Assembly: GCA_948470475.1 (NCBI GenBank)
Contig: OX419339.1
Coordinates: 13,439,863 to 13,503,862 of the forward strand
Source of the DNA: Galaxea fascicularis
Lineage: Eukaryota; Cnidaria; Anthozoa; Scleractinia; Euphylliidae
DNA: 64,000 nucleotides
Reading direction: 5' to 3'
Part shown: piece by piece, positions 1 to 52,374 of the stretch
How positions within the stretch are numbered: position 1 is the first letter of the stretch
Layout of the letters: each line of letters begins with the position of its first letter
Notes under the pieces: model-generated
Told to the model about the DNA's origin: nothing
Seen by the model: only the letters and a program-made list of their open reading frames with translations
Database searches by the model: none
Translations under genes and position numbers: made by a program

Positions 1-1880
1 ATGTATCTCTTGTATGTCTCATGCATCCCTCTGCTCTTAGGTTAGCGGAGTGTATCTTTTCTAACATCTGTGGGTGCATAGCCATGGGAATGAACACTCT
101 CATTCCTCTGTAGATTATTCCATCCTGAACTGCTAGCTCATCTCTATACGGCCAGTAGTCATAGACATTGGGCAGTACTTGCATCTTGACCTCAGGCCAT
201 CCATTAGCTATGATTTCAGCTAAGGTCATGCGATTTCCATCTTTTGAGGTTGCTGTTGCTACTTTCTGAAGTGTTGCATCTGTCATGTTGTGAAAGATAT
301 TTGGATCTATTCCCTCAATCTCTTTCATGAGAAGTTCTTTTACATGAATTGTAAAGACTTCATAATCAGCCATTTCCTTCTTAGCTTTTGTGTTTGGTTG
401 TTTGGGAGGGTACTAGATCTTGACAGATGATTACTTATGTCCATCTAAGTTTCCTTTTTGGAGACAACATTCAGGCCGTACTTTTGCAGCCATAAGCATC
501 ATGCATTGTAACCTCCTGGGGTGCTGTTGATACTTTTGGCTAGAATCGTTTCTAGAGGCTTATGATCTGTGACTGCTGTAATCTTTTCTCTTCCATGAAG
601 ATAGTGGTCAAATTGTGTACAACCAAACACCCCAGTACAAGGCATTCCTTCTCGATCTGAGAATAATGTCTCTCAGTCTCAGTCATTATGTGACTAGCAA
701 ATGCCACTGGTCTGCTGGCTTGAAGTAGAACTGATCCAAGTCCATAGTCTTGCATCCCTCTCAGTCATTACTTCTTCCTCCAAATCATAGTAACAGAGTA
801 GTGGTTGTTCTGAAATAATCTGTGTCAACTTGTTAAAGGCATCTCTGTGAACTTTTGTGGTCTCAGCATCTGAGTGATGGCTTCAACTTTGGCTGGATCT
901 GGCAAAATACCCTCAGATGTCAGGATATGCCCACAGTATTCCAACTTCTGTTGTTTGAAGACAAACTTGTCCTTGTTCAGTTTGAAGTTTCGCTCCCTGC
1001 ACTTCTGTAGTAACACAGTCAGATTTTTGTCATCATCTGCCAGGGCTTCTTCATGGGTTTTTCCTGCTCTAGTTACTAACAGGTCATCGGTTGTTGCAGT
1101 TAATCCTTCGAGGCCTTCAAGGATTTCGTTAGCATGTCTGGTGCACGACATATACCAAAGGGCACTCCTTTTGGTAGATACAAGTGGCTTAGGATGTGAA
1201 CAAAATGTTGTTAATTTGCTTGAATCCTCATTGCATCTAGCTTCACTTGCAGAAACCCATCTATAGCATCCAGGACTGTGAGCACTTGCACTTAAGCAAG
1301 TCTGGAGCGAGGTCACATCAGTGGTTGGGAGGCAGAGCTTTTGTATTTTGACATGCTTGTTCAATTCTCTGGGATCCAGACACGTAGCTGGCCATTGCAC
1401 CTCTTCACATAATTATACTGCACTGCCCACCCAGTCTGTTGGCTCATGTGGCCTTTCTATGTGGCCTTTCTGCTTCATTTCATGAAGTGTCTTCTTGAGA
1501 TTGTCTCTCAGTGTGATGGGTATGGTTCTAGGTGCATCTTGTTTTGGTACTGCTCCTTAGCTTCTGTCAGTTCAATCTTGTAATCTCCAGTGTACCCTAG
1601 ACTGCAAATACATTGTTGTATTCTTGTAAAACAGCATCCTTGGTCAACCCTTTCATGTCAAAGACTGAGTTGACAAGTAATTCTCTTTTTATAGACAGGA
1701 GTTCCAACTTCTCACATGTTTTTCCTGATAATAGTGAACGTGGGGTATCATCAGTCACTAGGAATTTTGCTCTGGTTATTTTCCCTCTGATCTGGATGTC
1801 AATGTACTAAGACTTCACCTTTGGGAAACACATGTTCTAGCCATTTCCGAATACTTTAATTTTATATTTTCCTTGGGGAG
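1..1880 (-). mobile_element. Degenerate Ty3/gypsy retrotransposon pol fragment
   Basis: Reading the minus strand from about 1880 down to 1, pieces of one pol polyprotein appear in order but in shifting frames. At about 1800-1600 there is an aspartic-protease/linker tail (TDDTPRSLLSG). At 1400-825 there is reverse transcriptase (CLDPRELNK, then TTDDLLV in place of the usual ADD box, then GHILTSEGI and DPAKVEAI). At 755-552 there is RNase H (PVAFASHIMTETERHYSQIE). At about 380-1 comes the integrase zinc-binding entry (DELAVQDGIIYRGMRV, then EKIHSANLRAEGC). Several frameshifts and stops, and loss of one Asp-box residue, mark it as dead. The integrase core and the downstream LTR would lie left of the window; I see no LTR at the right side. 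It is a non-viral retroelement relic, probably within intron 1 of transporter gene A. Confidence 0.85.
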
Positions 1881-6600: not shown

Positions 6601-9600
6601 AAAATGCGGAGAATATGCACCAACTGACTATCAGTGCTTAAAGGGTTAATATACTTGTGTGAAAGGAGAAGAAACATCTTGCTCAGAACTATTCCAAGTG
6701 GCGCGAGTTGTTTTTCGTGGTAGCGAAGCTAGGCCTTCACGCGAGAAACGTTTAGAACTGAGAGTTAGTCAGTGGTCACGGGAAGCGCTAAAAGCATGAT
6801 CCTCATTGCTCACGTTTTCAGCCAAATGCCGGCTTACCCACTGTCCCGCAAATGGCTGCTTGTTTGATCCAGCTGGGTAGTGTTGAATTCTTTTTTATTG
6901 TTCCCGACAAGTGATTAAGACAGTTGTCGACATTTTTTTCAGACCTTGGCAGATCGTTTATATGGAGTGATGGCTTGGGTTATTCCAGTATTCGTTGCTT
7001 CGTCTGCTTTTGGAGCCGCAAATGGATCTGCATTCAGTGGGGGAAGGTTGGTGTTTAAGCTGGCGCGTGTGAGCCATCTTTAGATTTATTCCTTTTTGCA
7101 GAAATAAGATAAATTTGAGTATTGCCGGGCTGCTTAAAACAGTTGAGGAAGAAATTTTCTCATGGCAGAAATGCGACGTTCGACTCGTCTCGTTGACTTG
7201 TTGACTCAACCGCCCTTAAATTCAGGTGTTTTAATTTGAAATTTTCTGAGATTTAGCAGCCAAAACTAAGCAAATCGACGAGTCCAAAAGAGACGCTTAG
7301 TTTTTGATTACAGCAAGGACCACAACTCACAGAACAGAACAATCAATTAAGTTTAATGAGCAAACTTCAAGTACTGATTACAGATTTCTCTTAAAATAAT
7401 TATTAAGTGTACATTCCATTATTGACATTATTGAGCGGCCTTAAAACTGTTTCTTCTTGTGTCTGTTTTTTAAGTTCTCTATTGCTGACCGCTTCCTTCT
7501 TCTCTCTGCCGCGGCCGCACGGGCAGCGGCTTCACGGGCTAACTGAGCTTGCCTATCAAGTCTGTGAAGACAAAACAGAAGATTGTAATCAGGAAAAACT
7601 CTTTTACCAGCACAACTTCTCTCACGAGAGGATTTCAGGAGACGTTTTCACGAGACGTTTGTTGATATATCATTGCATGAGAATTGGCGAACTTGTTTAA
7701 CAGACGGCGTCTTGAGAAGTTTTGCGTCGCCTAAAAACCTTCTTTCCAACCACTTGAACACTTTCAGGTGCTAAGTTGTTTAGATGCGAAAGACAAACTG
7801 AGATAAAAGTTTATAGATTGTACTACCAAATCGATTTACACTATATTACTATAATCAATAAATATAACAGCTTTCGTTCTAAAGAAACTCACTTTCCTCG
7901 GCGATATGCTCTCTCAGCGCGTGTTAACAGCTTGATACAGACATAATCAACACAAACAGCAATCACAAAGCGATTGACATCTCGCCAGGTCAAGCCAGCA
8001 AACCACGCCTTTAGATTTGTTAGGTGATCTAAAAGAAAAGGTGTTCAAGGTTAAACATGTCATTATCAGACAGCTCCTTAGCATGCGTAGTCTGAATGTG
8101 TGTCACAGAAACCACCATTACAAATTTCAGTGGGCTCCGTTTACGTACCCTTCAGATATCCGGCATACAATGCTGCAATGCCATTTCCAAACCAAGCACC
8201 AACAACGCATAATCCAGCACCCAGGCGTGATGCTCCCCACAAAATCATTTCAGCAAGCCACGCGAGTCCGTCCCAGGCCCACATGCCCATCCGTGTCACA
8301 ATGTTCTGTATTCTCTCCCAGGCCCACTCAGCTATCCAGGTCACTGTCTCCCTTGCCTCTTTAATCAGCCAGATCATTCTTTCCCAGGTCCAAGAACTCG
8401 CAAACATCACTCCATTGTAACCTTTATCGATCATGTTCATTGAAGCGTTGACAAGTCTGTTCCAGGCCCATGTTGCTCCGTCCTTTGTCGAGTTTTTTAT
8501 CGTCACTATAGTGCTTTGGCAGGTGTTGTACAACCTCATCATGAACCCGAGGGGTCGGGGCTTACATGTTTGGTTATTGATTGGGCGAGTCCCGTTTGCG
8601 GCACAAAAGTGGAATTTGTCGAGCTGAAACAAGAAAACATGGAGCAGATATAAATGTCGATCGTTTTCTTCGAGGGGAAGTTTCTCGCACTTTGCATTCC
8701 CATGTAGGCTCACTTGTTCGATTCTTGCAAAAACCGTAAATCTAACTGTGAATATGCTAGTCTCAAGGAATTATTTTTCAAACGTATTTGAGGAATTTCA
8801 GGTGGTGAAATGATTATCCTATAGGTATTCAGATTTCAAAATTTTAAAAGTGCGCACCTTTCCGTGTTTGGGCTTGACGTAGTTATCCGGTTTCACGTCG
8901 ATGTTTCCAGAGACTTTCTTGTCTTTCAGAACCAGCTCCATGTTGAGTTTGGAATCGGGAAAGTTGACGGCAATCGTGAGCACGTAATCCTGCAAAAGTA
9001 TTTTAATAAGTGAATGCTGTCGTCGGGTTTGCCAGAGTTCGGAGTGTTTTCAGAGGAAGGAATAAACCTCTGCAAATAACCTATTTCCCACTTTTCTATC
9101 CTTGTTTTTTTCCAGAATTCTGATATGAATCGGGACGGGCTTTCCCTCGGTGATCAGTCTTGTCAACTGTGATGTCCGATTGACTGATTTCAGTTTGGTG
9201 ATGGACTGATGCAGTAATTCTCGTAGTGCGATCTAGTTCGCGATGTTTTTAGAATGAAAATGTAACTTTTTAAGTTCTGATTTTAACTTTTAACCCTCTT
9301 GAAAGTTAAATAGAGTAAATGTACTCACCTTTCCTCGCCATCCTCCAGTTATGCTGGCGCCATGTTTCACGTCGATGAAGGAGAAGTCTTTCCTCTCAAC
9401 TTCATATTTAATCTCTGTGAAAGTGATTTTGTAATCGGCACTTGATTTAACTAACGTATGGTGTGGTAATACAGTAAATAATCGCGAGTCATCGATTTTT
9501 GAACAAAGCGCAAAAAAATACAACTGCAAAACCGCCGAAGCGCGCGCTTAGATAAAAAATCAAACGGCTGTGCGCGTGCGGAGAGTAGACTTGCAGGGAG

Positions 9601-12600
9601 CACCATGGCAACTGAAACATGTTTGACTTGGCTATAAGAAAAGAAAACTTTGCAAGAGGGTTTTGAAAATTTCTGATCTCACACGATCCTTTTTTTTTTT
9701 TTTCCGCTTTTCACGTTTTCATTTGTTAAAAACGGGAACAGTCGTTGAGAAAAGTAAATCTTTTGGCAATGAGGAAAAACCCTGCGTTAGACTCTCTGTT
9801 GAACCTCATCGAGTTTGGGAATCAATTTCTTGAAAAATAAAACTGTTGATGAGCAGATGTTACCTTCTCGTTTAGTTTTGAGTGCGAGGTTTGATACAAG
9901 TACCATTACTGCCAATGCAGATATCAATACCAATATCCTCCCGCGCATAATTGAACCTTTTTCCTCTCACACGAAACACACAACTGATTAGTTCCGCGAA
10001 AAAGGGCAAAGTGAATATTGAACGTCACAATCAGACTTTATGGTGCAATGTGCGCGCGGGATTAGACTAATTCCCAGGTTCTTTCAGTGCTAAGTTCATG
10101 TGTATGGACAAACCACGAGATGCCAGGAACTACAATACAGGACAAAACTCTTGGGACAATTCCAGCTTAACCTCCCCCCCCCCCATTATAATGTTGATTT
10201 TAGCCGTCGCGAAAACGCAGGTTAGTCCATCGACGGTTGGATCATTTCAACATTGTCTGGGGAGAAGGCGGGGTTCTAAAAGAACAACATGCATTGGTGT
10301 AATAAGGATAGAAGTGTGCGTAGTGCAATTTTCTAGTTTTCAATCAAGTTTGACAGTGTCCCAAGGTGTTATGACCTGCATTGTAGCCTCCTCTGGGGAA
10401 GCTGACTTTAACTTACTGATAAATTAGTGATTGTGCTTTGGGTCCATTATTACAGATTGGTGTTTGCTGCTGCCCGAGAAGGTCATCTGCCCAAGTTCCT
10501 TGCTATGATTCACACTAAAAGACATACTCCGTTACCCGCCATGCTGTTCACGGTGAGTCAACTCGTCGAAGATATTTTAACGATCTTGTGTCGATATCAA
10601 CTTTTGTGTTTGTCAGTTAAGCTGATGAAAGATCCAAGTGACGCGGTTTTACGAGTCTTAACAATCCACAGTATGCGTACTATTTTCTTCTCAGTTTTGC
10701 CTTTCAGCCCACGGGCGCGGTAAAGTGGAGTCGGCCGCGTGCAATTTACTTGTAGTCACCCTGATTGGTTTGATTTATCATTTGCCTTTGTTGTGATCGG
10801 GCAAAAACAAGTGCTTAAATTTTGCCTTATGTATGACAAGACAATACAATACAAGACGACAATATTTATTAACTCGCACTTAAACTAATTACAGAGCGAC
10901 GTTATATATATCACAGGTTAATCAAAGAGAATAATAAAGAAAAGTAATTTAGGTAATTGGAGCCTAGTGGTAAATGGAACCGTTAGGTTTTCGAGTTAAC
11001 CTGTAGTAACTATTCACCTGCTATTCATTATTACTATTCTCTCTCCTGTTTGATTAGAGGACAACGCAGCAGTTTTTTCCAAATGCGGCTTAGATTGATC
11101 CTTTCTATCCTTAGGTTCAGCGAGTATTTTTGTATCCACTCACAAGAAGTTTCTTATTCTGTTTTGTCTTTTCCGACAGAGTATTATTGCCTGGATCATG
11201 TTGTTGCCTGATTCAAGTAGTTTCGAGACACTCATAAACTACTTCAGTTTTGCCGCCTGGGTGTTTTACGGCGTCACTGTGTCTGCTCTCGTTTGGCTTC
11301 GATTCAAGAAACCCGACTTGGAACGACCATATAGAGTGAGTCACATGATCACCTAGTCAGTTTAGTTCAGAAGCTGTATCCCCGCAGTGAACCGTGGGAA
11401 GAGTGTTTGGTGGCAATAGCCAATAGCAAGGCAGGTATGAGCAATAGGCTAGGTAACATCAGATAGGACGCTTCGCGAGCTACAATCTTGGACAAAACTG
11501 TTCAAAAAATTGAAATACCTTTTTGGCTGACTTCTCTGTCAACAAGTTCAAATCGATATTGTTGCAAACTAAGATTTTCCTCAACTGCATTAGAAACAGA
11601 GCTTTAGTGTCTTCTGTAAAGAGACGCTAATTCACTAGCCGCTGAAGACCACAGATAAAGAGATCGAGGAAGGTAAGAATCGTAGAACAAACATGTGATA
11701 ACTGAAAGTCAGGTGTCGCTTTTGTAGTTACTTAATTCTTTAGATGCTGCTGAGAAGGCTCAGACCAGTCATAGAGAGTCAGGAAGAATCAGGGAGGGCC
11801 AACATCTGTAATCTTAAACTTTAACAGAAGTAGAATTGAGCCGAGGAACAAGTTGCGTGTAAGGGTTTTAACTGTTGGAACAACAACACCGAACGACACG
11901 CGAAAACAAAAAGAGGGCGCGTCACACCTGTGACGTACGAATTAATTGACATGGCACTCGCCGCTTTGTTGCTCACTCACTGATTTTCCTTCAATGACTG
12001 TTTGACATCAGGTTCCAATTGTTATCCCTGTTCTTGTGGTGCTGGCCTCCTTTTACTTGGTGATAGCACCTTTCTACGAAGCACCTTTGGAGTCATTCTT
12101 CTGTCTTCTCTTCATTTTGGCTGGAATACCATTTTACCTGGTTTTTGTGTATTTTAACCGCATCGTGCCCCAAGGTTTCCTCAAGGGAATTGGTAGGCCT
12201 GGCTTTTTACTTTTAAGTCTGATTTACGTTCATCGCCCAGGCTTCGCGAGCGACTTTTGCCATGCGCCTCGTGAAGCCAGAGTGTCACGCTTCTCTTGTG
12301 AGGCCGATTTACACGGTTCGATGGTCGCGCGCATCTTGACGTGTGCGGCACAACGTTAGGTCTGCGTAGATTTTGCTAGTAAACTGAGTCAAACTTGCTC
12401 CGAAAAATGGTCAAGTGTTGCCCAAAATTTGCCAAAAATTGTTAAAGACTCTACCAGAATTTAAAAAGTTGCTTGCCAAAGTGAGCTATTCTATTCTGCG
12501 TAATATCTTAAAACCAAGTTGCTCAAAATTTTAACAGTTGCCAAAAGTTGCCGAGCACAATCTATACGGGCCTTCACAACGTAGCACAAAGTCGTGCCGT

Positions 12601-19247: not shown

Positions 19248-22200
19248 TTACACATCAACTGGCAGTGTGTCTGGATCCTCAAAAGCCATGTTCCCTACTC
19301 GCTGACACAAGGCTGTGAACATGTCTGATGGAAAAGATACACAACAACAAAATGAGAGAAACAGTGAACATGATCACAAAGTTGCAAGTGCATTTTGCTG
19401 AGACTTTCTAGGCCCCAACAAAGCACTAGAGGCCAATTTCAGACAGCGATTTTTGCAGATAAAAAATTAATAAAAAAAGAATATTAAATTTCACTTTAAC
19501 ATTGATTTTTAACAGATCACACAATTCACTTTTCTTACAATGCATTACGGTGTTCCCAATCACCAGCCAAACTTAATTACAGTTAAGAAAGCCACATAAA
19601 CATAATACATAACTTGACACAAGTTGAATGCTATGGAAGCTTGGAGGTGTGGCAGTCAACATAGTGTGTCTGATCTATAGCACTTCATTGAGGAATTCAG
19701 TTTTGTCTTTTGTGCCATTTTGGCAAAAATGCCCCCTCCCCCCCCCCCCCCCACCAAAAAAAAAAACTGAAAAAGCCCCTGATAAAGTTGTCAATTTGGA
19801 CAAATTGTCCCACTTGATGGCAATCTTATATCACTGAGCATATCTCAGTTTTCAGTCAAAAGAGTAGCACATGCCCACCACAAGGGGCTGGTTGGACTTA
19901 AAATAACTTCTTGGTGAGACTGTGCTGGCTGTGTGCTGGGCATAGGTGGTGATTTTGCATTGCAATCCAAAATTCGAACATTTTCTTTCCTTTGGCCTAC
20001 AGACTGGTTGTCACATCAGAACCATACACCCACACTTCCACACCAGACCTCATATCAGGGTCTTAAAAATTAATAACTTCTTGGTAAGACTGTGCTGGCT
20101 GTTTGCTCAACATCTGCCTCAGTTCAGACAATCAAGTCACTGGGCAGTAACATTCAACCATTGGTGTAGTCTCCTCAATACAGGGTTCATACTTGCGAGA
20201 CCTTGAAGTTGGACTTAAAAAATGCAAGGGGTTTCAAGACACGTATCTACTCTGTCAGTAGTAGTGAGTGCAGCACAGGACTCACTTTCAACATGTTTAT
20301 GGTGTGATCACTCTTGGGAAAGAAATTAGACTGATAAATAAAGCCTTGCACTCTTACCTGCAGCATTTAGAAGACATTTTGGTGCATGATTGCTGACAAC
20401 AAACAGCCAGTAGAATGGAAGGCCGGCCAGGACAATTGCCAGAGCTATGAGAGATCCTTTGGGATCAGTTGTGATTGGAGCCACCACAAGGTAAATTGAG
20501 GCCAAAAACATGACAACAGGTACAACTATATTTATCTGCGAGACAGGAATAAATCACTATTAATGTTAACAATCAGTCTAAAAAAAAAAACCCTACAAAC
20601 TGCTGCTTATACCCCCTCCAGTTGTAAGGTAAATTGAGGCCAAAAACATGACAACAGGTACAACTATATTCACCTAAAAGACAGGAATAAATTACTATTA
20701 ATGTTAACAATCAGTCTAAAAAACAAATTCAATGTTTGTTTTGAGAATTGTAAATATTTCGAATTGTAAAGCTTATTATCGTAAGGCACATTTGATCATA
20801 TTCACAGGCTAATTTGCTCCTCATAAGTAGTAAATTATTGTTATTATTATAGTTTAGCCAAGCATACCTTATAAGGCCTTTCTGCATTTGGTCTAATTCT
20901 TCGTAGCCACAACAGAGCAGCAAATGTTCCACCATAAAACAACCAGGCAGCAAAACTGAAGAAATCCACCAAACTTGTGAAGCTGCTTGCTTCCGGAATC
21001 AACATGAGCACAGAAATGAGAGTCTACAGGTGAATGGAAACTAAACAGTTAGGACTTCACCTTTGTAATTGTGAACAGGCAGGGTCGTCAAAAAGATTGT
21101 AAGTAGAAGGAGAATCTAGGAAAGTAGAAGGCAGTCAGGGGGTAACAACACCATTTTCTCCCCTACATTTTCTCTTTTCACCGGCAAATCATAGCTGGCA
21201 AAACTAGGAAAGTAATATAGCTGGCAACATCGCCTGTTGCCGGTGCTTTTTGACAATCCTGACATGGAATAGCATAGTTTTTGTATCAAGAATGAGAAAT
21301 GAAATTTTCACTTACTGTGAAAAACAGTGATGGAAGGGGAGTAAACCTTTTTACATGAATCATAGCCAAAAGGGGAGGCATCAATCCATCGCGTGCAGCC
21401 ACGTATACCAACCTGGACAGTGAATTAAAACAAGAAAATAAAGTCAAAAAAGTTTTCAAAGAATAATAATTATTTATACTTGAAATTCTGTGATTTAACA
21501 TTGGGTTATTCCAGAAATTAAAATCCACACCTCCCTGACGGATGGGCAATTTTTTTCCCTTCCACCCCCCTGATTTCCAAAAAAGGGTATAAGCCATAAA
21601 TTTAATTTTATTCAAAAGAAAATATACAAAATCACATCCAGAAGATGCTCTTATTTAATTTTTAAAGCTTTAGCAAATATAACTCATGCTTACAATATTG
21701 TGAAAAGCACGTGTTTTTGGACTCGTAGCTTATTAAAAAAAAGTCCTCCAACCAAATAATAATAATAATAATGATAATAATAATAATAACAATTATAATA
21801 AAAAGAACGTTTGAAGGAAAATCTGTGGTTTTTTTTTCTCAACAACCAAGATTTTGATATGTGTAATGTACCATTTACAGAACAGTACATACACCATATT
21901 AGAGCTGTGTCAACTTTTACGCTTAGTGGCACGCTGGGGCCTGGGTACAATGCAAATAGTGTCAGGCATTGCAATTTTTTAGAGAGCTACGGCTCTCTTC
22001 AGGTTCATCCGTTTGCGACACATTTTCTACATATTGTCTGTGATTATGAAAGAACTGTCGACATAACTTGAACTATGTCAGGTAAGAAATATATAAACTG
22101 AAAGATTTCTACTTTTTTCAGACTCAAATGGAGCTCAACATTTACAGATTGAAAAGTTCGAGGAAATGACCCCCAAAGAAGAGTTTTTGAGGTTTCACCC

Positions 22201-25200
22201 CCCTCCTGCTTGGATTTCCATAGCCTTTGACACCCTGAGAGAATGAGAATTTTGAGAAACCCATCTGTGAGGGGTGTGTGGATTTTTTCTCGAATAACCC
22301 ATTAGGCTGTACTGCCAATATCTGCCAAAGAAACACTAGGTTATAAATGTAATGACGTAGTTTCATTGTAGTGGCCCAGTATATATTTCCAATATTTTCA
22401 CACCAAGGAGGTATTATGGATTGTTTTTTAATATAGACAGGTAAATGAACTCCAAATTACAGTAAAATTCATAAAATTATACTCATGTTTATGAAAGCAG
22501 GAAAGAGAATTTATGAAAGGCAAGAAATGCAAAACCCAATATTACTAACCTGCCACTGGTGAACAGAAGGCCATTAACTGCTCCAAAGGTTGAGCAAGCC
22601 ACAAAGACAGGAACAATCCAACTCACTGGTCCCAGGTACAAGTCTCCAACACTCTAAATAAAAATATATACAGGCAGGTAATATTTAAATTTTTGTTAAA
22701 GTGTTTGAAACCTCTACTCTGAGCAGGTTTATTTTCATCTTTAAATATATTAAAATATATTCAAATATAATTGATTACAACCACTTAAGAAGAGCAAAAA
22801 ATTAACTTCAGTGCTTGGTCACCAATTGAGCTAGTTTCCTTGAATTATTTGTGGCCCTCTAATTTCCTCTTGACTAACACCCACAGCTTTCAAGTTATGC
22901 CCCCAGAAAAAGATTAAACATTTTTAAATTTGCCAGCATCATGCAAGTCTGGGTATTAGTCTGCAGTCACATGTCAATAAAATCAAAATGACGTCTAGAT
23001 ATGATGTGGGGCAACCTAAACACAATATTTGCGTGAAAAGTAACGAAAGCAAAACTTTTCAATCACTGCCATATATACTTTTTTAACTCACCACAGCTAC
23101 TGCATCAGATTTCAAGATACCACTTTTTCCCAGGACTGTGATATATGCCACATTCACCATCAGGTAACACACGGTTGTCAAAGAGATGCCAATACCTATA
23201 GCTCTGGGCATGTCCCTGGGAACAACGGGGGGATTGATATAAGTTTATTAATAAGTTTCTCAGTACTTTGTAAGTTTCACAAAACACAGTCTCAATGACT
23301 GAGTGATGGTGGCTTTGGAGTCAAGATTACATGGAAAAATCCCTGAAACCATTTATCAATAGTGAGGCCTTAAGACAAAGCTATGTCTTGTCACTTTTGG
23401 CATCTGGACTTCATTTGAGAAACATTCCTTGTCACTTTTTTTGGCTCTTTTTATTCGTTATATTACCATCATCATAATTTCATATACATTGTACATCAAT
23501 TTTGCATTGCGGTTAACTTTGATTTAACTTAGGTTGATATAAATTTCCTTTGTCTCCTAACCCTAATCATTCATAGGAGAGAAAGGAAACTGACATCAAA
23601 CTATAAGGTTTAATCAAAATTAACCTCAAATCAAATTTTACTTGTAACAAATGCATCATTATACATTCAAATTCCTTACTTTTCAGGACGTTTCATTTCC
23701 TCTGTACAGTAGTTGAGGTTGTTCCTGTAACAAAGGACACTTATTAGTTAATGTCAGCTCTTGCAAAATTATAATAATCTGGACAATCAGCCAATGACTA
23801 CAATGCAGTGTGCTGCCTACAGAATTCAATGGCATGTGCTTGACTGACAAACTTGTTGACTTATGTTTGAAATTCCTTTTTTCTGACTGAAAGTCTCAGC
23901 ATGAACAGCTGACTAATTAAAAAAAAAAATTATGTTTGACTTACCAGCCATCATAGGCCCAGAGACCCAAATAAAATGCCATTCCAATCTTTCCAATGTT
24001 TGTGGTAGACCCCTTAAAACTGTCCTTAAAATGTTCGGTTTTTCCTTGAAATTAAAAACAACAATAATTTCATTAATTAATCAAAGAGTTAAAAAGACAC
24101 AACCATCCTCCTTGATTTGTTGATTCAATGATACACAAAGATATTTGTCTGTTATCACCATTACTTGAAGATAGGGCACGATTTCTCACAGACTTTATGA
24201 CAGCATGAAAGGATTTAAGTGTGGAACACACCCAAAACAGTGTTTTTCTTAATAGAATTAAAATATAAATGAAATGTTTCTCTTAGAATACCTTTTCCAA
24301 GTTCCACAAAGCCAATGATTGTGATCATCACAATACACAAGAGCTTTGCGTATGTGAAAATGTCTTGAATTCTGGTGGCCCATTTCACACTCCAGCAGTT
24401 AATAGCAGTGAGTATCACTGAAAATCAAATAACCATCTTGAGTAACAATCTATTTTACTCAGAGTGGGGAGAGTGAGGTAGACACTTGTGAAAGGCTGGG
24501 GTGCTTATCTTCTTGTTAAATTATTTATAGATTCTGGCATCTGTCATTAGGAAGTTCAGCGTGGACACCAACATTTAAACATTGTGCTGTTTTAGAAATA
24601 GCAATCAAATGAAGTTAATACTGTAGTCATTGCGCCTCTTTCATGGCTTAATTAAAAATGTTCAAGCACTAAATCTGATTCCTCGTTTACCCTCTCTCTG
24701 TCACCACCCACGGTTAACTGTGGTTAATTTTGTTTATCACACAACAGGAAACCCAGCTAGCTTCAGCATAACCTTTTTTCGTTAATTATTACCATGAAGT
24801 AACTGATTTCTATTCTAGTATTAGTTTATATTTTACTACATGATTTTATTTTTGGGCGTCCTGTAAACTAGCTGTTCAGCTGAGCAGAGTATCTTCTATG
24901 ATACAGATATGGCAACTAGCTTTTTTGTCAGGTTCTCCTTCTTAGCTCACGAATACCTTATTACATACCCAGTTACAGAAACAATGCTTTCATTGGCGAG
25001 AGAAAACAGTACATCCACAGACACCGGGCTTGTATCACCAATCAGGCTTGTTTTACTCAAACACAGTTATAAAATTCATAGACCACAATACAGCATGCAA
25101 ACACCCATGGTCTATTCTGCTGATTAAGTCTAATTTAGCTGTAACCAATAATTATTATTAAGATGTCGCACAATTAACAAGAACTTGCATCGCATTCCAA

Positions 25201-41101: not shown

Positions 41102-44100
41102 ATGGCTTCCAAAGAGGATGACGCTGCGGCAGTTGAACCACTTACCGGCGGTGAAAAGGACGCAAACGGCGAAGCCCTCGCTGCTGTCGAAGACAACAGG
41201 GTCGTCGGTCTAAAAAAAGAAGTTTCCCTCCTAAATGGAGTGACAATGGTCGTTGGGGTGATCATCGGCTCCGGTATTTTCATCTCTCCAAAAGGCGTTC
41301 TGCAGCGAACTGAATCTGTGGGAATGAGTTTAGTTGTTTGGGCTGGATGCGGTGCTCTGGCGTTGTTAGGATCCCTCTGCTACTGTGAAATGGGTACTAT
41401 GATCCCGAAATCTGGTGCTGAGTATTCCTACTTGTACGAAGCCTTTGGCCCTCTACCCGCTTTCCTCTACAGCTGGACCTTGGCGCTTATCATTCGACCA
41501 TCCTCTCTTAGTGTTGTGGCGCTAACCTTCGCCCGCTATGTGAGTCAGCCGTTCTTCCCGGACTGTGAAATCAGCCCGATCCCCGTTAGAAAAATTCTGG
41601 CAGCGACGTGTTTAGGTAAGTGGCAAGGTCCGTCAGTTGGGTAATCGTTTTTACACTGTAAAATGTATAAAACCCTCGAAGGAATCGTGTGTGGTGCAGC
41701 CGGGTGTCGATCACATGGGCTTTGTTTACGGTTTGCGATTCATTGCGGGCCTTGAATCCTTACGAAGAAAATTAAGATTATGTCTAAAAGCTATCAATAA
41801 ACGACAAATACAGTTAAAATTTTTATGAAGCTTAGTCGAAGCGGCCTTGAAAGAAGTTTCATTTTTGTTTTACTAAGCATGTGTTTAAATCGACAGGCGA
41901 AAACTTTTGTTTTCGGTCTCCAGGTATTGCATCAGCTTCGATCCAAAACGTGGTTTAGGAATAATTTGCATACCTACTTGACCTCGCGATGAAGGGTGGC
42001 AACATTCTTGTTTAGAAGGCCTGGCTTTCTGTCTTTATATCGAGAAGTTTAAGTGCTTCACGATTTGCGAGAAAATTAATGAAGAGCTGGAGACATTTGT
42101 CAGAGAAAACTTGCCGTTGCATTGGGGTTTCTGGGACTAGGGTCTGGAAACCTGTAATGTACTTTTATGCTATAAAAAGTACACGAATATTCTTTTCATT
42201 TTATCTACTTATTATTTTAATAGCCGGCGCAAAAAGATCTAAAATCAAAAGTAATGATTCAATTACTTTTAAAATGATTTTCAAGAAAAAATGTTGCAAA
42301 ATGCTCATTAATATTGATGCACATGCATTGTCTGCAATCTGTGTGATGTGAGTGGTTTGTAACACTTGAAACTCATATGACTGAAATGAGATGTGCATTT
42401 GCATATTTGCTAGGCGGGGAGATCCTATGGATAATGCATGACTCGAATTGTTTGTATTGTAAAGAATGAAGCTGGAATTTGAAATCAATCCCTTTTCTTA
42501 ATACTTCAGTAATTTAATTTTGCCAACTCAATCCAAGAGGGAGGTCCTTCAAAAACATGTTGGTAAACAGATTAACAGGTCATTCTTGGGTTTTGAAAAA
42601 TATTGTTCACTTTTGAGATCACGTAATATACTGGTATCCAGTGTGTATTGCTCATGCATGAACCACGTGATAAGAGTTGTTTACTTGTGGTGAAAAAATG
42701 TCTCGCATGTTCAAGCTGGCTTTTTTCATTATTTTAATAGAAAACTGTAAAGTGATGTGGGCAGTAGACAAAACCAATAATTTGCTTCCTTTTTTTAGAA
42801 CAGATCATGGACGTACATGTACATGTATATCTTGAGGCAAATGGAAATAAAAATGATATACAAACTAAAAAATTATTGGACAAAAGTTGATTTCAATCCA
42901 CAACATCTACATGTATCTGCAGCTCTGTCGTATTAAAACAAGGACTTGAATCATCATATAAGATGCAGTGCAATTTTTTTTATAACTTTCCATTCATGTA
43001 ATTTTACTTGAGATTGTCCATTTTCTTATCTACCATGAGCTCAAAGGTGAGGTGAATACCGGGTAGCATAATTTGCAGTTAGTGTGATGTTGCTGTTCAT
43101 AATAGTATGTTTGCTAGAAAGGTCCTGTTTTATAAATTCCCAATTCAAAGTTGTGGGTATACATTGTAAAGTATACATGGGTTTTGACAAAACACTGATC
43201 TCCTCTATCAATGACTGGAAAATGTAAAACAACAAACTGAAGTATCCGTTGAGGCTCAATCCAGTTCACAGACAAATTCTGGCTTGCGAGTCGGAAAGTA
43301 ATGGTGTCAGTACCGGTATGGTCTTGCTTCTGCCATCTTTGAAATTTGAGGAAAGCTTGAATTAATCTATGAACTTATTAAACTCAGTTGTTCATTTTAT
43401 TCCCTTTTTGAAAATGCTTTTCTAATAGCAACTTCTGTTTTTATTCTAGCACTTACCATGTTTATAAACTGTGCAAGTGTTAAATGGGCAACACGTATCC
43501 AGGACTCTTTTACCTTTGGAAAGTTAATTGCACTGGCAATCTTGATTGTTATTGGTCTCATTGAACTTGGATCAGGTAAGAAGACATCTATTGTCTTACT
43601 ACAGTGTAGGTGGTTTTCTCTAATTTAAACTCTTGACTTTTGACATGCTTAAGGTGGAATTGTGTGCTGGGTTACAATGGTTGCAATCTGACTGTAGACA
43701 AAATAAACAAATCACTCAAAAATCACTTAAAACAACATGTGACCAGGCCTTTTTATTCAGGATGAGAAATTTGTCTCATTCTTCTTTGCAAATTTCAGAT
43801 GGTGGCATGTACATGTAAATGAATTACTGTGTTGGACTATAATTTGTATTATTATACATTAAGCTTGTTATCTCCTTTCCGATTGGCCAAAAGTTTACGG
43901 TGAGTATTTGAAATCTGCGCCTGCAACATCATCAAGCTGCAGATTATACAATAATCATGTCAAGGACACCCAAGGTCACTGGTAATCATGTCATGACTTC
44001 AGTGCATGATTTCTAAGGATAATCATGTCAAGTTTGTGCACTTTGCGTGGCTTGTTGTCCAGCTTAAGAAGCGAATGTTTACTGCCATGACAATTATTTT

Positions 44101-47100
44101 GTGTTCAGTGTATAATAAAAAAAATAATCATTAGACTTGGCTTCTGTGATGTCCAGAATAATCAAGGTCTAGATAAAAGTTATCAGCCTCAGCTGATAAC
44201 TCTAGGCTCGACTTTGATCATTCTGGATATCATCCAATAATATTTGTTTAATAGATTGAATGAAATAATGTTGAGCTTCTGAAACGGTGAGCTGACCTTT
44301 TAGGTAATGTCAAGAATTTTGAAGGATCTTTTGAGGGTACCACATCAAACTTGGCAAACATTGGGCTGGCCTTTTATGCTGGTCTGTGGGCATATGATGG
44401 CTGGTATGTACAACAATGAAGTTGTTTTAGTGTATCAGGATACTGTTCAGTGAAATTTCCTTAACTGATAGCTAATGTCATACCACTTTTCTATAACCAT
44501 ATCACTCCCAGGGGTGACCAATAAATATATATCTTATTAACCAAGAGTGAGGGCCATACTCGGAGAATATCGGCCCGAGGTCTTGACAGTACGGACCGAG
44601 CACAACAAGGTCCGTACAAAAAAGACTGAGGGCCGATATTCTCCCGGTACAGTCCTGAGCAAACTTAGTTAATAAGAGATTTATTACATGACTGAAGACA
44701 ACGTATAAACAACGCGGATCGTTTGGGACAATGCCCAGTCCAATACCGTAAATCCTCTATTAAGCCCCCCTCTCAAAAAAGCCCCTCCTCTCTAATAAGC
44801 CCCCCTTTTCAGAGGAGAAAAGTTAATAAGCCCCCCTTCTCCCCCTCCCCCAATCCTTATTCTTCACAAAAAAATTAATGATTAACGTGGACTGATCAGT
44901 TATGATTTATTCAGGCTGGAAGTTAAAAAAAATGACCAAAGAACATAATAGAGGATTTATGGTACTTAGATAATATCAGACTGGCAATAGAGCAATTTTA
45001 TTGGTTGATTTTAGTCATTGGCCCTCTGATGTGCAATAAGTGTAATAAGTAATTCTCCTCGCAGTATCTGTCCATTGTCAAGAAGGCAGGTGATGAGAAT
45101 AAAGAGAAAAATCAACTGATGATATTGTTTGATTTAACACCAAATTCTAAGAACTAACATATGATTACAATCAATGTATGGCAGACATGAAATTGGGATT
45201 GTGTGAGTGGAAGGGTTAACGGCTCTGGTGGGTAACCAGGGTGATAAGTGCAGTACTTGTTATTTTTATCAGGACACAAACTACTGTTTCAAGACTCTTG
45301 TTTTAGCATTTCAGTTCTGTTATCCCCAATTTTTTTTCATATTATTTTGACATAACCAGAGAAAAATTATTTTATGAATGACTTGAAAATTTTTCTTCTG
45401 ATGTGGATTCACAAAAGCACCTTTCATTATCACTTCAAGATTACAGTTACTTTAATTGAGATCTTTTGGCTATGACTGACAGATTTTTTTTCTATTTCTT
45501 TATACAGGAACAGCTTGAATTTTGTGACTGAGGAAATGAAAAACCCAGCAAGGTAATAATTATTGATTGTTATTTGTCTGATGGTTAGTTGGTTAGTTAG
45601 TTAGTTAGGTTTCGGTCGAATTTCGTTTTCATCATAGCCACAAATTGCATTGTTTTTTAAAGTTTCCCGTTCCCACGGGGAGTCTCGAGAGAATGGTGCG
45701 ATTTCATTGGCTCTCAAGAAAATCGTCCGATTTCATTGGCTTTTCATCATCCTGGAATCACGTGCCAGGCTCGTGCAAGGACCGTGCGAGGTCAAGGTGG
45801 AAACTACAGAAAGGCTGGAGTGAGAAAAAAAGGCTTCCTTGTGTATGAGGCGTGAATTTACAAGATAGTAGTTTGCCGGTCTCAGAAGGAAAACACTGCT
45901 CTTTAAAGCTGTAAATCAAAAGAATAAGTTGTAAGAAACACTCGGCAGTCTCAACGGTGGAGATCAGTTTGTTCATAATGAAGAAATCCCTCTTTGAGGA
46001 GAGATCAGTGAGTGTGGTTTTGTGATCAAAGCAAAGTTCGTTTGAGCTCTTAGACTGGGAATCCACCTTGCAAAACATTACAGGTTTGGATGTGGTTGCT
46101 CCGTGAGATGTGAATTTTTACCGTGCTTTTATATGCTTCAATGCCTGATTCGTCGTGTGTTTCCAAATAACTTTTATCAGTCTGATCAGTGAAATTCAAG
46201 TCAATAAATTAGCTATACAAGAGACTCGCAGTTCTTTGCTTTCGCGTAGTTTTACTCGAGGCAAAAATTAAACGCCTTTGCTTTTCAGCTGTAAATGGAA
46301 GCTTACCTGAGTAAACTTAATATTTAATCAGAAAATTAACGTTGTTTTGGTTTTGTGTATGGAATCGTTAACAATTGCACAAACTGTCACGCCACAAACT
46401 TGTGTGTTTGCCAGTGATCGAACCAACAATTTCACTGTTTATTGAGCCTTGGATAATTGGATAGCCAAGCGTGTGCTTGAAACCAGTGAGCCATTGATCA
46501 AACCAGTGAGTTCACACGAATCAAAACAGTGAGTTTACTATTCACTCACAATTTATTGAGCGATGTTTGTAATACTCTACCAATTGCTTACATTTACATT
46601 AACATTTATTTGTGTGTATGAAAAGATTCTGTCTGTGCAGAGGCAATCATTCAAATTTAGTGTCACTGTAATATTGACAAACACATCCCGCGTAAACGCC
46701 TACAGGCGTCTTGTTAATATTATTGAATGTATCTTTTTGTCAGGGATCTACCTCGTGCTCTCATGATTGGAATCCCGCTTGTTACGGTCGTCTACCTGCT
46801 GACCAACATTGCCTACATTGCTGTGGTTGGAGGAGATGGAATTGTGAACTCTGGAGCTGTTGCCATGGTGAGTCATGTTTTGGGTAAGAAGCAAGGTTGC
46901 ATTGCCTGGCTAAAAAATTATTTCAGTCTTTGTCACATTCCTGGTGGAGAAGATACATGGTGTTGTTCACTGGAGTTTGCCAGGTTAACCAAAATGGTAC
47001 ACAGAACAGCAAGCAGGATTTAAAACAATTTTAATCTGTTGATTGATTTGGGCTGAGCTGCTGGTACATCACTCACGGTAAAAACTACAAATGAAATTGC

Positions 47101-50100
47101 CGATTATCTGTGTCACAATGGGACTTGAAGTCACAATTCTAAAACAAATATTACAAGACTGAAAGTGAAAAATAAAAAAAGGAAAACTACTTACATTTGA
47201 TCTGTCCCCCGGGTGCTAATTAAGAAAGTCAAGAAACTCCTACATTGTAATTTCTCCTGTTAACTCCATGCGACTCCTAGCATGCAACTCCGAAAAACTG
47301 TCTAAACACACATGCTTTTGAAATACTAACTCTAAATTCTAAAGCAACAATGTCACAAAGAGACCTAAAGCGGCTAGCCATAAAACAAAAATTAATAATT
47401 AACGAAATCAACTAAAACAATAACAGAATGGAAAAAGCCTTCAATCTATGTACAACACAGTCATCAAGTCTTCATCAGTGTAGAATGCCCTCAAACTTGA
47501 AAAACTGTCTCAAAAGACTTGCCAACTGGATCTTTGCTACAATGTGAAAGCCTTTGCTTCTCACAGCGAACCAAGAGGACTCCAGAAGCAGACAAAGTAT
47601 TAACCCAGTTTGTATCGAGTTACTGTTTGAATTTTTGATAATTAATGCATAGCATAAAAATAATGTGGATGACTTTCTGCAGTTGGTTGGAGACATGAAG
47701 CTTGGCCCTGTCAATTGGTTCATCCCCATCTTTGTTGCATGCTCAACTTTTGGATGTGTGAATGGATTGGCCTTCAGTGGTGCAAGGTGAGTTTACCATC
47801 AGTTTTTTTCCATTTAAAGTTGAAAATTAATGTTTGCTTGTTTCCATGTTCTAAGGCAAACTTGCTTTGTTTAATTGTAGGGTAGAATATCCTTCAATTT
47901 TAGAGGTGTTCTCTTCAAACTGACCTAACGTGAATGTATTATGTGTTCATTAACAACTGCCCATTTCCTGATAACAGAAATTGTTTGGTAGCATATCCAT
48001 TATAAGCTGTTTTCAAATTTGTTCTCAGGCTGGTTTATGTATCTGCTCGAAATGGCCACATGCCCAAAGTACTTGCTATGGTGCACAAGACTTGTAACAC
48101 TCCTATGCCTTCCATCATTTTCTTGGTAAGATTATTAATCTTGTTACATTAACTACTTTTCCTTTACCATCGGCTCTACCTTAACATCCACAGTCAGCTC
48201 TCACAATACACGGAAATTTAAAAAGCACTGTGCACTTTAATATTCCAAGGCATGACCCAAATTAGAATGAAAGCTGACTCAGTAGAACAATGCATTATCT
48301 TATAAAGGTAGTGACCAAATGAGCATGGTCCATAATGAAAAGAATAAGTGATGTCAAAATAATGTAACAATAGGGAAGAATAGATACATCAGATCACAAC
48401 ACTGTGCTGCATCTTTGATGATGCAGTTTACTGATTAATTTCGTTAGAATTCAGTTTTTTTCCTGTGAAGCAAAATGCACAATAGAAACACGTGGCAGTG
48501 TTTCATTTGTCAATGCACAATACAACAAAGGTGGCGGTGTTTTCATTGGTCAGTGTACAATAGAAAGCACCTGCCGTCAATTTACGTACCGTATTTACTG
48601 ACGAAGTATCTCAAATTTGCATAAACTTGTTTTTGTGTAAAGTGATACTTTCCACAACCTGACCCAACTAAGTGCTCAAAGTTAAACAATCCACTTCCAA
48701 TGAACTGAACACATTTACCTGCACAAATCTTTGTAAAGTTGTGAAGATTTTAATCCAGTAAACTTTGTTCGCACGAAAAGGTTTGATGAATTTAAGAAAA
48801 GGTTGGAAGCCACGCACATGCTGTGCGCACAACTCGTACCCCGTGACAGTTCTATTTTTAGGGGCCAACACTCACCTCCGCACAGAAGGGAGGTTGGTAA
48901 TCTTCATGCGTTGCGCACGAGACTCAAGTGACCTTTAGTGCACCACTGCACAGAAGGTCGGTCACTGTTTTCAAAGCTCACCTTCATTTCTTTTGATTTT
49001 TCTGCAAAAGATGCTTTAATGAGTCATGTCAGAGGTCTCTCTTACCATAATCTTGAGTTCTAAATCCTTTGATAAGCATTTCCTTTCTCAAAACCCATCC
49101 ATCTGCATAAACAATGTGCTTATTTTCACCTCATTAATTCCAAGCTTACTTGGTGTGCTGGCCACTTCAGATGCAGGTCATGCCGGGTTTGTCAGTTAGT
49201 AGTAGGATCTTCTGCAGATTGTTTTTTCAAGTGATATGATTGTTATCAATGGTTAAGTTGTTAAGTAATTTTGCAGTTCAAAGTTGATGCGTTACCTACA
49301 AACAAGTAGCGCCATGTGTTCAATGCAAAAAGGACAGTGTACCGGCGTGGGTCCAGAAGGAACACAATACCCATGTGGCTTGAACGGGCATTTAATTGCT
49401 TGACATCTTCTATATTCTGAGTTACACATACACCTACACCTGTCAAAACTGAGAGACTGTCACCAGTCAAAACTATAAACGAAACGTAGGCAAAAATAAA
49501 GACATGAAAAAAAGGAAAACTCACACCTTTCCGGGCTTGCCTTCGGACCGCATGGTCGAGACTAAACAACAACAACTGATTGCGCAAGCGCATGATGACG
49601 GAGCCGGGCTGTCACACAACATGACAGCTAACAAACTAACAGCCCGCTAGGGTCGCTTCAGACAGACTTCTCTCTTTTCTTTTGCTTAGCACTAAATTAG
49701 GGATACACACTACATTTTTGCAGGCCCAAGTTTAGGCTAATTGTACCCTCTTGTTTCATTATAGCATGTTATTGCAATGATCATGTTGATCCCAGACTCC
49801 AGTGAATTCGGCACCCTGGTGAACTACTTCAGTTTTGCAGCATGGCTGTCATACTTTGCTGTCTTTGCTGCACTGCTTTACCTCAGATGGAAACGCCCTG
49901 ATGCAGAAAGACCTTACAAAGTATGCTCTGTCATGATTTTCTGTCATTTGATAATGCTTGCTGTTATTATAGTGTTGTTTAATATAATGTTATATAATTT
50001 TTATTGTCACTATTTCAGCTTGATTGACTACAAGCACACGGCTTGAACTATTTCTTCATGGCTTCAGGATGGCGTACAAGAATTTGAAAAATTTTAGGCT

Positions 50101-52374
50101 AAAGTTTTCAAAATACAACCCATTTTCATCCTTGCTATTTGTAACAGTAGAAGGCAGTACTTAAACCCCATTTACACTACAGAAAAAAACGGCATGGCAA
50201 GGATAAAAACTGGCAAGGGTAGCTAACATTTTGGTAGGGCAAAGATTGTTTACACATGTACCGTTTCACCCTTGCTTGATTTGTTCTAGGCAAGGCTATT
50301 TTGTTCCAGACAAGGCTTAGATTTGTAAGTGAGCATGCGCATTGTGCTAATTCAAGATGGCGTCCACGGGATTGTTGATCTTCGAAACCTCCGTACCAAG
50401 GAAATCAAACAAAACCGAGCAGAAATGTCGACAACGTGAAATAAAGTACCAGATAAGTGAGGAATCGAGGAAGAAAGAGCATTTCATTAGATACCGCAAC
50501 TGCGGAAGGAAAAAAAACTACTGTTGCTCACGTTCACCAAGATTAACATTGATTAACATTGATTAACCCTCCAAGGGAAAGAAACCTCTAGATAAATCCT
50601 CAGTCCGATGACTGGTTTAAAATGGCTGACAGTACCTTCACCCAAGAGAAGTAGTGCTGTTATCAGAACATGCGCAGAATGATCAAAAGTTACCTTCTAG
50701 GCAAGCAGGAACGTTTACACGTTCCATTTTAAGGGCAAGGTGCCGGTTTTCGTCCTTGCCTTACCGATATGTTCAAAAACGGGACAACATCTAAACGTGG
50801 TCCCAAAACTGAAAATTAAATTGGCAAGGTAAGGCAACCTTTGACAGTTTACACCACTCAATTTACCCTTACCTTGCCTGAGGTGAAAATTGCCCTTGCC
50901 GGTTTTCACCCTTGCCTAGCCGTTTTTTTCTGTAGTGTAAATGGGGTTTTAGTCTCAGTGCAATAACACAGTCCTGGGTAAATAAACTGCTTTTTTTTTT
51001 TCCTGATTTAAAGACATTTTTTGACATTTTACAGCAAACCAAAAGAGTGTGACAGTGCCCCTTTAAATATGGTTGTTTGGATTATGTACATGTAGGGTGT
51101 TCAGTTTCTTGTGCATGCTCTTTTCTTTACAAGTATTCAAGTACATTAATAATTATTATTTTATGAATAGCAAGAATCATGAATACCTTGATTTGTATTA
51201 ATCACTTCAGCCTTCAGCGTTAGTACTATAAGTTGCACACAAACTTGGCCTAACAGTCAAACCAGCTCAAGTGTACCCCTGTAGATTATATAAATGAATT
51301 GATTATTTGAGAATTGAACCTGTTTGTTGTTCTGAGAATTAATTCATTTTGGAAACTAGCACATTAATATTCAAATCAAAATTGGCAGTTTCTGATTGGT
51401 TTATATGAACAAGGGATGTTCCTTGTATGGAAAATGTAGCTTGTTTACAAAATGGCGGCAAGGAACCAAGCAAGACCAAACCTATGAGCCTGAAAAACCT
51501 ATCTCTTAACGCTGCAATTAGAGGGGAAATTCTTGACTAGTGCAATCATGGATGTTCCAAAACGCAGATTTCTCATGATTTCCAATGCGTAGTGTCATCA
51601 GAAAGATGGTTAGCTGTTTTCAACGGTACGGAACTTTGACTGCTTTTGCCCGTGGTGAGTGTGAGCCAAGATACGATGTGTTATAGTTATAGTGCAAACC
51701 AACAGCCTTTGGTTGGGAGATAAAAAAAAAAGCCTTTCCTTGAAGGAATTCATGATGAGTTTACTTTACCACCTGTTTCAGAAACCAAATTTTGATTTGA
51801 ACATTGATTTGCTCATTTTTAAAATGAAAGCATTCTCTGCGCAACCAATGGATTCAATTTTCAAATACTTGATTCATTAATGGGATTTACAGGGGTATGC
51901 TTGACCTGGTTTGACTGTAATTATCAGCACTATAGTGCTCAACTGCATGTACTCACTGCTATGTAATGTTTTAATTTGTTTTGTTTTGTTTCTGTGCAGG
52001 TTTGGCTGGTTGTACCTATAATCATTTCCTTATGTGCTCTGTATCTGCTGATCACTCCCTTTTGGCAAGAGCCTGTTGAGAGCACACTGGCTCTGGTCTT
52101 CATCCTAGCTGGCATCCCTGTTTACATCATATTTGTTTGGTGGGAGAAGACAAAATATGCCTGTGACAACTTCTGTGGTAAATATCAATATTGACTACCT
52201 TACGCATATCGGTTGTTAGAGCTCACTTGCTGTTTTCAGTGTTTGAAACTGTAGGTTTTGTTGACCTGTATTTTCTATTACCTTTCAGGCCGATTTACTT
52301 ATAAGGCACAAGAGCTGTTCAACATTTCTCTGGCAGAGTCTGCTGAAGACAAAGACACTTACTTTGAAGATTAA
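41102..52374 (+). CDS. SLC7A9-like: SLC7 amino-acid transporter light chain C, b(0,+)AT-like (complete)
   Basis: Ten GT-AG exons: 41102-41615 (ATG), 43450-43575, 44304-44403, 45508-45552, 46744-46867, 47683-47786, 48029-48125, 49765-49920, 52000-52177 and 52289-52374 (TAA). The CDS is 1530 nt, 509 aa. A tail of about 38 acidic residues precedes TM1 with GSGIF (56-60). Cys155 (FFPDC) is the presumed disulfide site to an SLC3 heavy chain. Further motifs are [74 protein letters not shown] and [20 protein letters not shown]. The predicted role is exchange of neutral/cationic amino acids at the plasma membrane. The C-tail ([20 protein letters not shown]) is longer and more acidic than in genes A and B, suggesting different trafficking or partner use (inference). 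It is divergent from gene B across a 13.4-kb gap. Introns 3 and 8 carry MITEs. Confidence 0.94.
44520..44690. repeat. Hairpin MITE-like element in intron 3 of gene C
   Basis: The left half (TATATATCTTATTAACCAAG, GAGAATATCGGCCC, CAGTACGGACC) and right half (GGTCCGTAC, GGGCCGATATTCTC, TTAGTTAATAAGAGATTT) are inverted copies around AGCACAACAA. Confidence 0.75.
44744..44964. mobile_element. MITE with TACCGTAAATCCTCTATTA-type ends
   Basis: Left TACCGTAAATCCTCTATTA (44744-44762) and right AATAGAGGATTTATGGTA (44947-44964) are inverted repeats with one difference. The interior is rich in AAGCCCCCC motifs. It lies about 50 bp from the preceding hairpin, in the same intron. A related motif (GAGCTTATTAGAGAGGGGGG) occurs at about 25362 in intron 1 of gene B. 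Confidence 0.75.
50163..50949. mobile_element. MITE with perfect 31-bp terminal inverted repeats and GGCAAGG subrepeats
   Basis: AAACCCCATTTACACTACAG at the left, continuing AAAAAAACGGC (50163-50193), is matched exactly in inverse at 50919-50949. GGCAAGG/CCTTGCC repeats occur at both subterminal regions. The 787-bp length has no transposase. It sits in intron 8 of gene C. No clear target-site duplication was identified. Confidence 0.85.

Follow-up and report, generated by a model that had tools for sequence, protein, structure and literature searches.

A multi-copy coral gene family with members nested antisense in host introns encodes a predicted membrane protein with a tryptophan-marked 11-residue repeat

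In the stony coral Galaxea fascicularis, what does a small gene lying antisense within an intron of an SLC7-like transporter gene encode, and where might its tryptophan (Trp)-rich product act? The gene lies in a 64,000-nucleotide stretch of genomic DNA (contig OX419339.1, positions 13,439,863 to 13,503,862), here called the window. A first-pass annotation had read it as a four-exon gene ending at 8141 that encodes a secreted protein. We found that the four exons join in phase on the minus strand at GT/AG sites as described; the 3' end was misplaced, however, because the stop at 8141 is intron read-through. The frame runs on past this point by way of a donor at the end of exon 4 and two further exons, giving a gene of six exons and 344 residues (Table 1). 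Its five donors match the consensus at 7 to 9 of 9 positions, a score of 7 being reached by only 7 of the 131 same-strand GT dinucleotides in 7440-9948. On sequence criteria, the six-exon model is very likely correct.

A search of the 416.6-Mb genome, in which the window sits on a 36-Mb contig (C5), revealed four further copies of the gene, one of them on another chromosome (C4). The same genome has 46 GFP-family matches, against none in 14 control genomes, as suits an anthozoan coral. All five copies, down to 30% protein identity, have intron phases of 1,0,0,1,2, the same exon order, an 86-nucleotide exon 2, and a 136-nucleotide exon 5. In the four other copies, exons 5 and 6 keep the same positions and phases, and their frames stay open. 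The frame as a whole is under purifying selection: comparison of the window copy with the copy at C5:12.88 Mb (L011) gave a nonsynonymous substitution rate (dN) of 0.241, a synonymous rate (dS) of 0.531, and a dN/dS of 0.45 (bootstrap range, 0.33 to 0.63; 0 of 200 replicates at or above 1). At the DNA level, the exons of this pair are 60 to 83% identical, and introns 1 to 5 are 44 to 61% identical with many indels. Taken singly, exons 1 to 6 had dN/dS values of 0.99, 0.46, 0.27, 0.47, 0.53, and 0.24, with 99, 25, 10, 2, 15, and 1 of 200 bootstraps, respectively, at or above 1; exons 5 and 6 together gave 0.40. By its substitutions, exon 6 is clearly coding, and its DNA is 80% identical to L011, versus 44% for L011 intron 5. 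For exon 5, the main evidence is that the copies agree exactly in its length and phases, keep its frame open, and share a hydrophobic stretch followed by basic residues. In the C4 copy (L012), a partial duplicate of the beginning of exon 4, containing a stop, lies upstream of the real exon (L012 3568-3650); we read it as a decayed extra exon.

Relatives were also found outside this genome. A search with the spliced protein returned one, P0001, and a profile built from six exon-4 sequences, including P0001, returned seven proteins (P0001 to P0006 at an expect value [E] of ≤4.7e-30 and P0007 at 1.3e-16), all of which are open frames from public contigs. P0001, P0002, and P0004 continue into stretches that look, by eye, like introns of the coral copies, and they therefore represent genomic rather than transcript evidence. 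Searching the genome with P0006 gave only the five known places. A protein search with a wider alignment yielded, from 2218 candidates, 5 proteins that were all known already; since it missed P0003 and P0006, members of its own profile, it provides no evidence against further relatives. The first-pass annotation had recognized no family, and this was borne out: Pfam gave no match to the spliced protein and none of significance to ten members of the family, NCBIfam and PHROGs had nothing significant for four proteins, and solved structures gave no significant match. Matches to IL32 (3 of 10 members; best E, 0.05) and CATSPERB (1 of 10; E, 0.14) were treated as chance. A viral or prokaryotic origin was rejected, as none of 37 pattern matches in IMG/VR contigs and none of 64 in GTDB contigs were confirmed. 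The literature matches listed, from open-licence PMC articles, contained no description of the family. By these searches, the family is conserved and multi-copy and has no matching curated model.

The most distinctive part of the protein is the Trp-rich region of exon 4. WxW(N/E/D)(R/G) motifs occur at exon-4 residues 52, 78, 100, and 115, which gives the spacings of 26, 22, and 15 that had been reported and had been placed on an 11-residue unit typical of lipid-surface amphipathic helices. The period itself was recovered, with 11 or 22 as the top self-similarity lag in all five sequences tested: P0003 (z score of 10.4 at lag 11), P0006 (8.8 at 22), L012 (6.3 at 22), L011 (3.5 at 11; P = 0.0165), and the window copy (4.4 at 22). 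In the window copy, lag 11 had a z score of 3.1, and the chance of any lag scoring as high was 0.059. In 2000 shuffles each of P0003, P0006, and L012, the lag signal was never equalled, and identity within repeat columns was above all 5000 shuffles in the same three sequences; the window value was reached by 45 of 5000. The 11-residue period of the family is real, and that of the window copy by itself is only suggestive.

P0003 and P0006 lay out this region as tandem 11-residue units. With the register set by hand, we counted 6 units in P0003, 9 in P0006, 7 in L012, and 6 in the window copy, where one 15-residue stretch was left out; the exon-4 alignment of the window and C4 copies has gaps of 11, 15, and 11 residues, along with short ones near its beginning. 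The unit consensus is approximately V-x-W-L-A-E/N-x-x-W-D-x, with Trp mostly at positions 3, 7, and 9; most of the polar residues fall at positions 6 and 10, which are neighbors on a helical wheel. Such a helix would present a hydrophobic surface around almost its whole circumference, broken by a narrow acidic or polar stripe. AlphaFold2 modeled P0003 as one helix over residues 101 to 180, with a mean predicted local distance difference test (pLDDT) score of up to 84 in a ten-residue block.

Read from end to end, the protein begins with a hydrophobic N-terminus, followed by the parts encoded by the small exons 2 and 3. Exon 4 then contributes NxS/T sites, a CKPxPxGFM-like motif (of which P0004 to P0006 carry variants), and the Trp region, and exons 5 and 6 add a hydrophobic segment leading into a basic tail. 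The hydrophobic N-terminus and an exon-5 hydrophobic segment followed by Arg/Lys were present in all three copies measured (window, L011, and L012), as judged by hydropathy only; parts of the Trp region likewise score as hydrophobic. The best 19-residue segment of exon 5 had a Kyte-Doolittle score of 1.93 in L011 and 2.21 in L012, and NxS/T sites number 4 in the window copy, 3 in L011, and 1 in L012. The four C5 copies end in KKKQF, so that 4 of 5 copies have a KKXX-type end (KKQF); KKxx at a C-terminus has been described as a signal for COPI sorting (PMC3521961). Judged by eye, the start of the C4 copy looks closer to a typical cleavable signal peptide. Because the hydrophobic segment and basic tail come after the Trp region in the complete gene, and are retained in other copies, the proposal of a secreted protein was not borne out.

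We favor, with a probability of roughly 45%, a reading in which the gene encodes a single-pass, type I-like membrane glycoprotein whose luminal Trp-undecad helix (a helix of 11-residue units) sits beside the anchor and makes the protein a membrane-associated scaffold. The signal sequence would take the chain into the endoplasmic reticulum (ER), and the short N-terminal part from exons 2 and 3, with the beginning of exon 4 and its glycosylation sites, would end up luminal or extracellular. The long continuous Trp-rich helix would follow on the luminal side of the anchor, where it might partition into or pack against the luminal leaflet, or against itself. Exon 5 would span the membrane, and exon 6 would form a cytosolic basic tail whose KKQF end, in the C5 copies, fits a dilysine (KKXX) ER-retrieval signal. 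The reach of the scaffold would be set by the number of 11-residue units. Topology, glycosylation, and ER retrieval are predictions from sequence, and membrane scaffolding by the Trp helix is our conjecture. The family is, in this assignment, anthozoan, its protein probably membrane-associated, and its C5 copies probably retrieved to the ER.

Several observations weigh against this reading. The window exon-5 segment is only moderately hydrophobic and includes an Asp. Exon 5 is also weakly constrained, with 18 of 46 residues common to the window copy and L011 beside the dN/dS and bootstrap values given above, and its DNA (60% identical to L011) is no better conserved than intron 4 (61%), though it lacks indels. 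Exon 1 taken alone, with a dN/dS of 0.99 and 99 of 200 bootstraps at or above 1, is without visible constraint, and the L011 gene model requires a GC donor for its last intron. A signal-sequence cleavage site is not clear by eye in the C5 copies, and therefore their N-terminus could be an uncleaved anchor; the C4 copy lacks the KKXX end. The P0003 model is poor over residues 2 to 108 (under 50 before residue 109; overall mean, 51.5), and that of the window exon is a low-confidence single helix (mean pLDDT, 45). Four repeat regions have interface energies of -6.7 to -19.1 kcal/mol on the Wimley-White scale, which count in favor of the reading, but these are plain sums made without a structure. 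Lastly, hydrophobic-moment peaks fell at 98 to 99 degrees in all five sequences when calculated without a null, whereas for the repeat region with shuffles the peak lay elsewhere or was unremarkable in 3 of 4 sequences (a peak as high in 1197 of 2000 shuffles for the window copy, 907 for P0003, 204 for P0006, and 38 for L012). Pooling 28 repeats on an 11/3 wheel gave a moment of 0.23, a value that 6518 of 20000 permutations reached and that is not above chance. Because the pooled moment is no better than in permuted controls, the lipid-surface amphipathic helix of the first-pass annotation is not supported.

Synucleins, exchangeable apolipoproteins, and perilipins share with the coral family an 11-residue repeat forming a helix, here a predicted one, although the likeness is weaker in the window copy alone. 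The coral helix differs in being far more hydrophobic and Trp-rich, in having no significant amphipathic moment, and in being part of a predicted membrane-anchored glycoprotein. Neither the spliced protein nor the ten members had a Pfam match to these families. All 17 subthreshold profile matches in solved structures, which lie over the repeat region, are chains of one protein, alpha-synuclein, and are not significant (best E, 0.23).

A serious rival, though a rather doubtful one, is that the Trp helix forms a rod or docking strip whose spaced Trp residues anchor partner proteins or mediate self-assembly, in the manner of phage tape measure repeats. The 11-residue spacing with Trp favored at three unit positions, the variation in unit number between members, the long uninterrupted helix in the P0003 model, and the lack of significant amphipathicity would all fit such a rod. 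Phage tape measure proteins carry far more units than the coral protein. They resemble it in a period of 11, in the use of Trp as a marker, and in a unit number that varies between members, as described for their W/F-marked 11-residue repeats (PMC3271669). Among the four proteins searched, weak profile matches to tape measure families do occur (E of at best 0.031 for L012 and 0.27 for P0003; none for the window copy or P0006), but these are at chance level and establish no significant homology. Moreover, a tape measure protein is a phage virion component, whereas the coral protein has a eukaryotic membrane-protein layout with a signal sequence and a transmembrane segment, and no partner is known.

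It is unlikely, in our estimate, that the Trp region instead inserts as one or more transmembrane helices to give a multi-pass or oligomeric, pore-like protein. The 22-residue super-repeat is about one bilayer thickness, and parts of the region have transmembrane-like octanol scores (best 19-residue sums of -3.3 kcal/mol for the window copy, -7.6 for P0003, -6.1 for P0006, and -7.9 for L012). However, most 11-residue units hold a charged residue, and on the same scale octanol sums over the whole region are unfavorable (+2.3 to +9.6). We consider it quite improbable that the gene has four exons, stops at 8141 (as it would, for instance, if intron 4 were retained), and yields a secreted protein of apolipoprotein type. 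The frame does stay open for a few codons of intron 4 and then meets a stop, L011 and the C4 copy have a similar early stop, and constraint on exon 5 is weak; yet all five copies have a GT donor at the end of exon 4 and carry exons 5 and 6 open and in phase, and the joint dN/dS of these exons is 0.40. A spurious gene or pseudogene assembled by eye, which would account for the missing family match, was rejected as very improbable by the conserved architecture and open frames of five copies, by purifying selection (dN/dS, 0.45), and by five public-contig homologues besides P0001 at E ≤4.7e-30.

The nested position of the gene was as first described, with SLC7-like exons flanking it on both sides. 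Amino-acid permease was the Pfam match of four of six single host exons (one above the curated cutoff), and a four-piece join of host exons matched at an E of 1.9e-18. The same host surrounds L013, where 7 of 7 host exon queries matched, and L014, where 4 of 7 matched and the stretch expected to carry the other three is partly N. The window copy, L013, and L014 (C5:13.448, 13.400, and 13.354 Mb) thus recur with host exons about 45 to 48 kb apart, and we read this as a recent tandem expansion of the nested gene and its host at C5:13.354-13.448 Mb. Two more SLC7-like genes lie in the window, at 20341-24424 (-) and 43458-52149 (+), with exons 43 to 65% identical; neither has a recognizable nested copy, since a tblastn search of the window with the full protein, at an E cutoff of 1, matched this locus only. 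Elsewhere in the window, open frames at 499-1412 (-) look by eye like retrotransposon polymerase fragments.

The C4 copy lies antisense between two exons of TMEM117, which match Pfam PF15113 at E values of 1.6e-22 and 9.5e-40 over adjoining profile ranges. A second TMEM117-like gene follows this copy (L023 3499-5459). Around the C5:12.88 Mb copy, no host was recognized among exons of the two known hosts in 28.7 kb or in two open frames scanned with Pfam. One of these frames had no match; the other, a single open frame of 457 residues (L020 2681-4051, -), carries WD40 repeats together with a SOCS box and lies about 9 kb from the beginning of the copy. We dropped a functional link to the host, such as an SLC3-like partner for the SLC7 transporter, because the C4 copy has TMEM117 as its host and the 28.7 kb surrounding L011 yielded no exon of either host gene. 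Copies in both hosts keep their introns, and therefore neither arose by retrocopying; introns are retained in all five copies, and a retrocopy origin was rejected on this ground. Whole genes inside an opposite-strand intron of another gene are a known class in animals (PMC8467205). The coral gene resembles these nested protein-coding genes in lying wholly within a host intron on the opposite strand; it differs in that related copies occur in two unrelated hosts, SLC7-like and TMEM117, with their own introns kept.

Table 1. Coordinates of the nested gene, its parts, its hosts, and its other genomic copies (window positions unless a contig or locus is named)
Feature	Position	Strand	Remark
Exon 1, coding part: start codon and hydrophobic signal sequence	9864..9948	-	Counterpart in 4 other copies
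Exon 2	9329..9414	-	86 nucleotides in 5/5 copies; phase 1 to 0
Exon 3	8858..8989	-	Phase 0 to 0
Exon 4: NxS/T sites, CKPxPxGFM-like motif, Trp-rich region	8149..8623	-	Donor at 8149/8148
Trp-rich region inside exon 4	8150..8479	-	11-residue unit, one 15-residue step
Intron read-through holding the stop read earlier as the gene end	8141..8148	-	Donor there GT in 5/5 copies
Exon 5: hydrophobic (predicted transmembrane) segment and beginning of basic tail	7893..8028	-	136 nucleotides in 5/5 copies
Best 19-residue hydrophobic segment in exon 5, putative transmembrane anchor	7922..7978	-	Kyte-Doolittle 1.57
Exon 6: Ala/Arg/Lys-rich tail	7441..7561	-	C-terminus ...KKKQF, stop TAA
ATTAAA, possible poly(A) signal	7352..7357	-	
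Host intron of SLC7-like transporter enclosing the whole nested gene	7047..10455	+	Boundary bases read; host exons on either side
Host transporter exon upstream of the intron	6919..7046 (start approximate)	+	No Pfam match alone
Host transporter exon downstream of the intron	10456..10560 (end approximate)	+	
Copy L013	C5:13.40 Mb		DNA 99% identical to window gene
Copy L014	C5:13.35 Mb		Protein 94% identical
Copy L011	C5:12.88 Mb	opposite strand	Protein 61% identical
Copy L012 (C4 copy)	C4:10.56 Mb, another chromosome		Protein 30% identical
TMEM117 intron nesting of the C4 copy	L012 3-494 and 6532-6897	-	Pfam

A bolder proposal, which we hold to be unlikely as it stands, is that this undescribed anthozoan family uses its Trp-marked undecad helix as a luminal ruler or scaffold for the membrane, with a length that evolves by gain and loss of 11-residue units. 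Helices of this type are known from phage tape measure proteins and, lacking the Trp, from synucleins. With their clean repeats, P0003 and P0006 open the helix to direct biophysical study. Related genes lying antisense in two unrelated hosts offer a natural comparison for the origin and movement of nested genes. Collectively, the coral genome gains a conserved, multi-copy family with a striking predicted protein design, in which Trp undecads would lie beside a membrane anchor.

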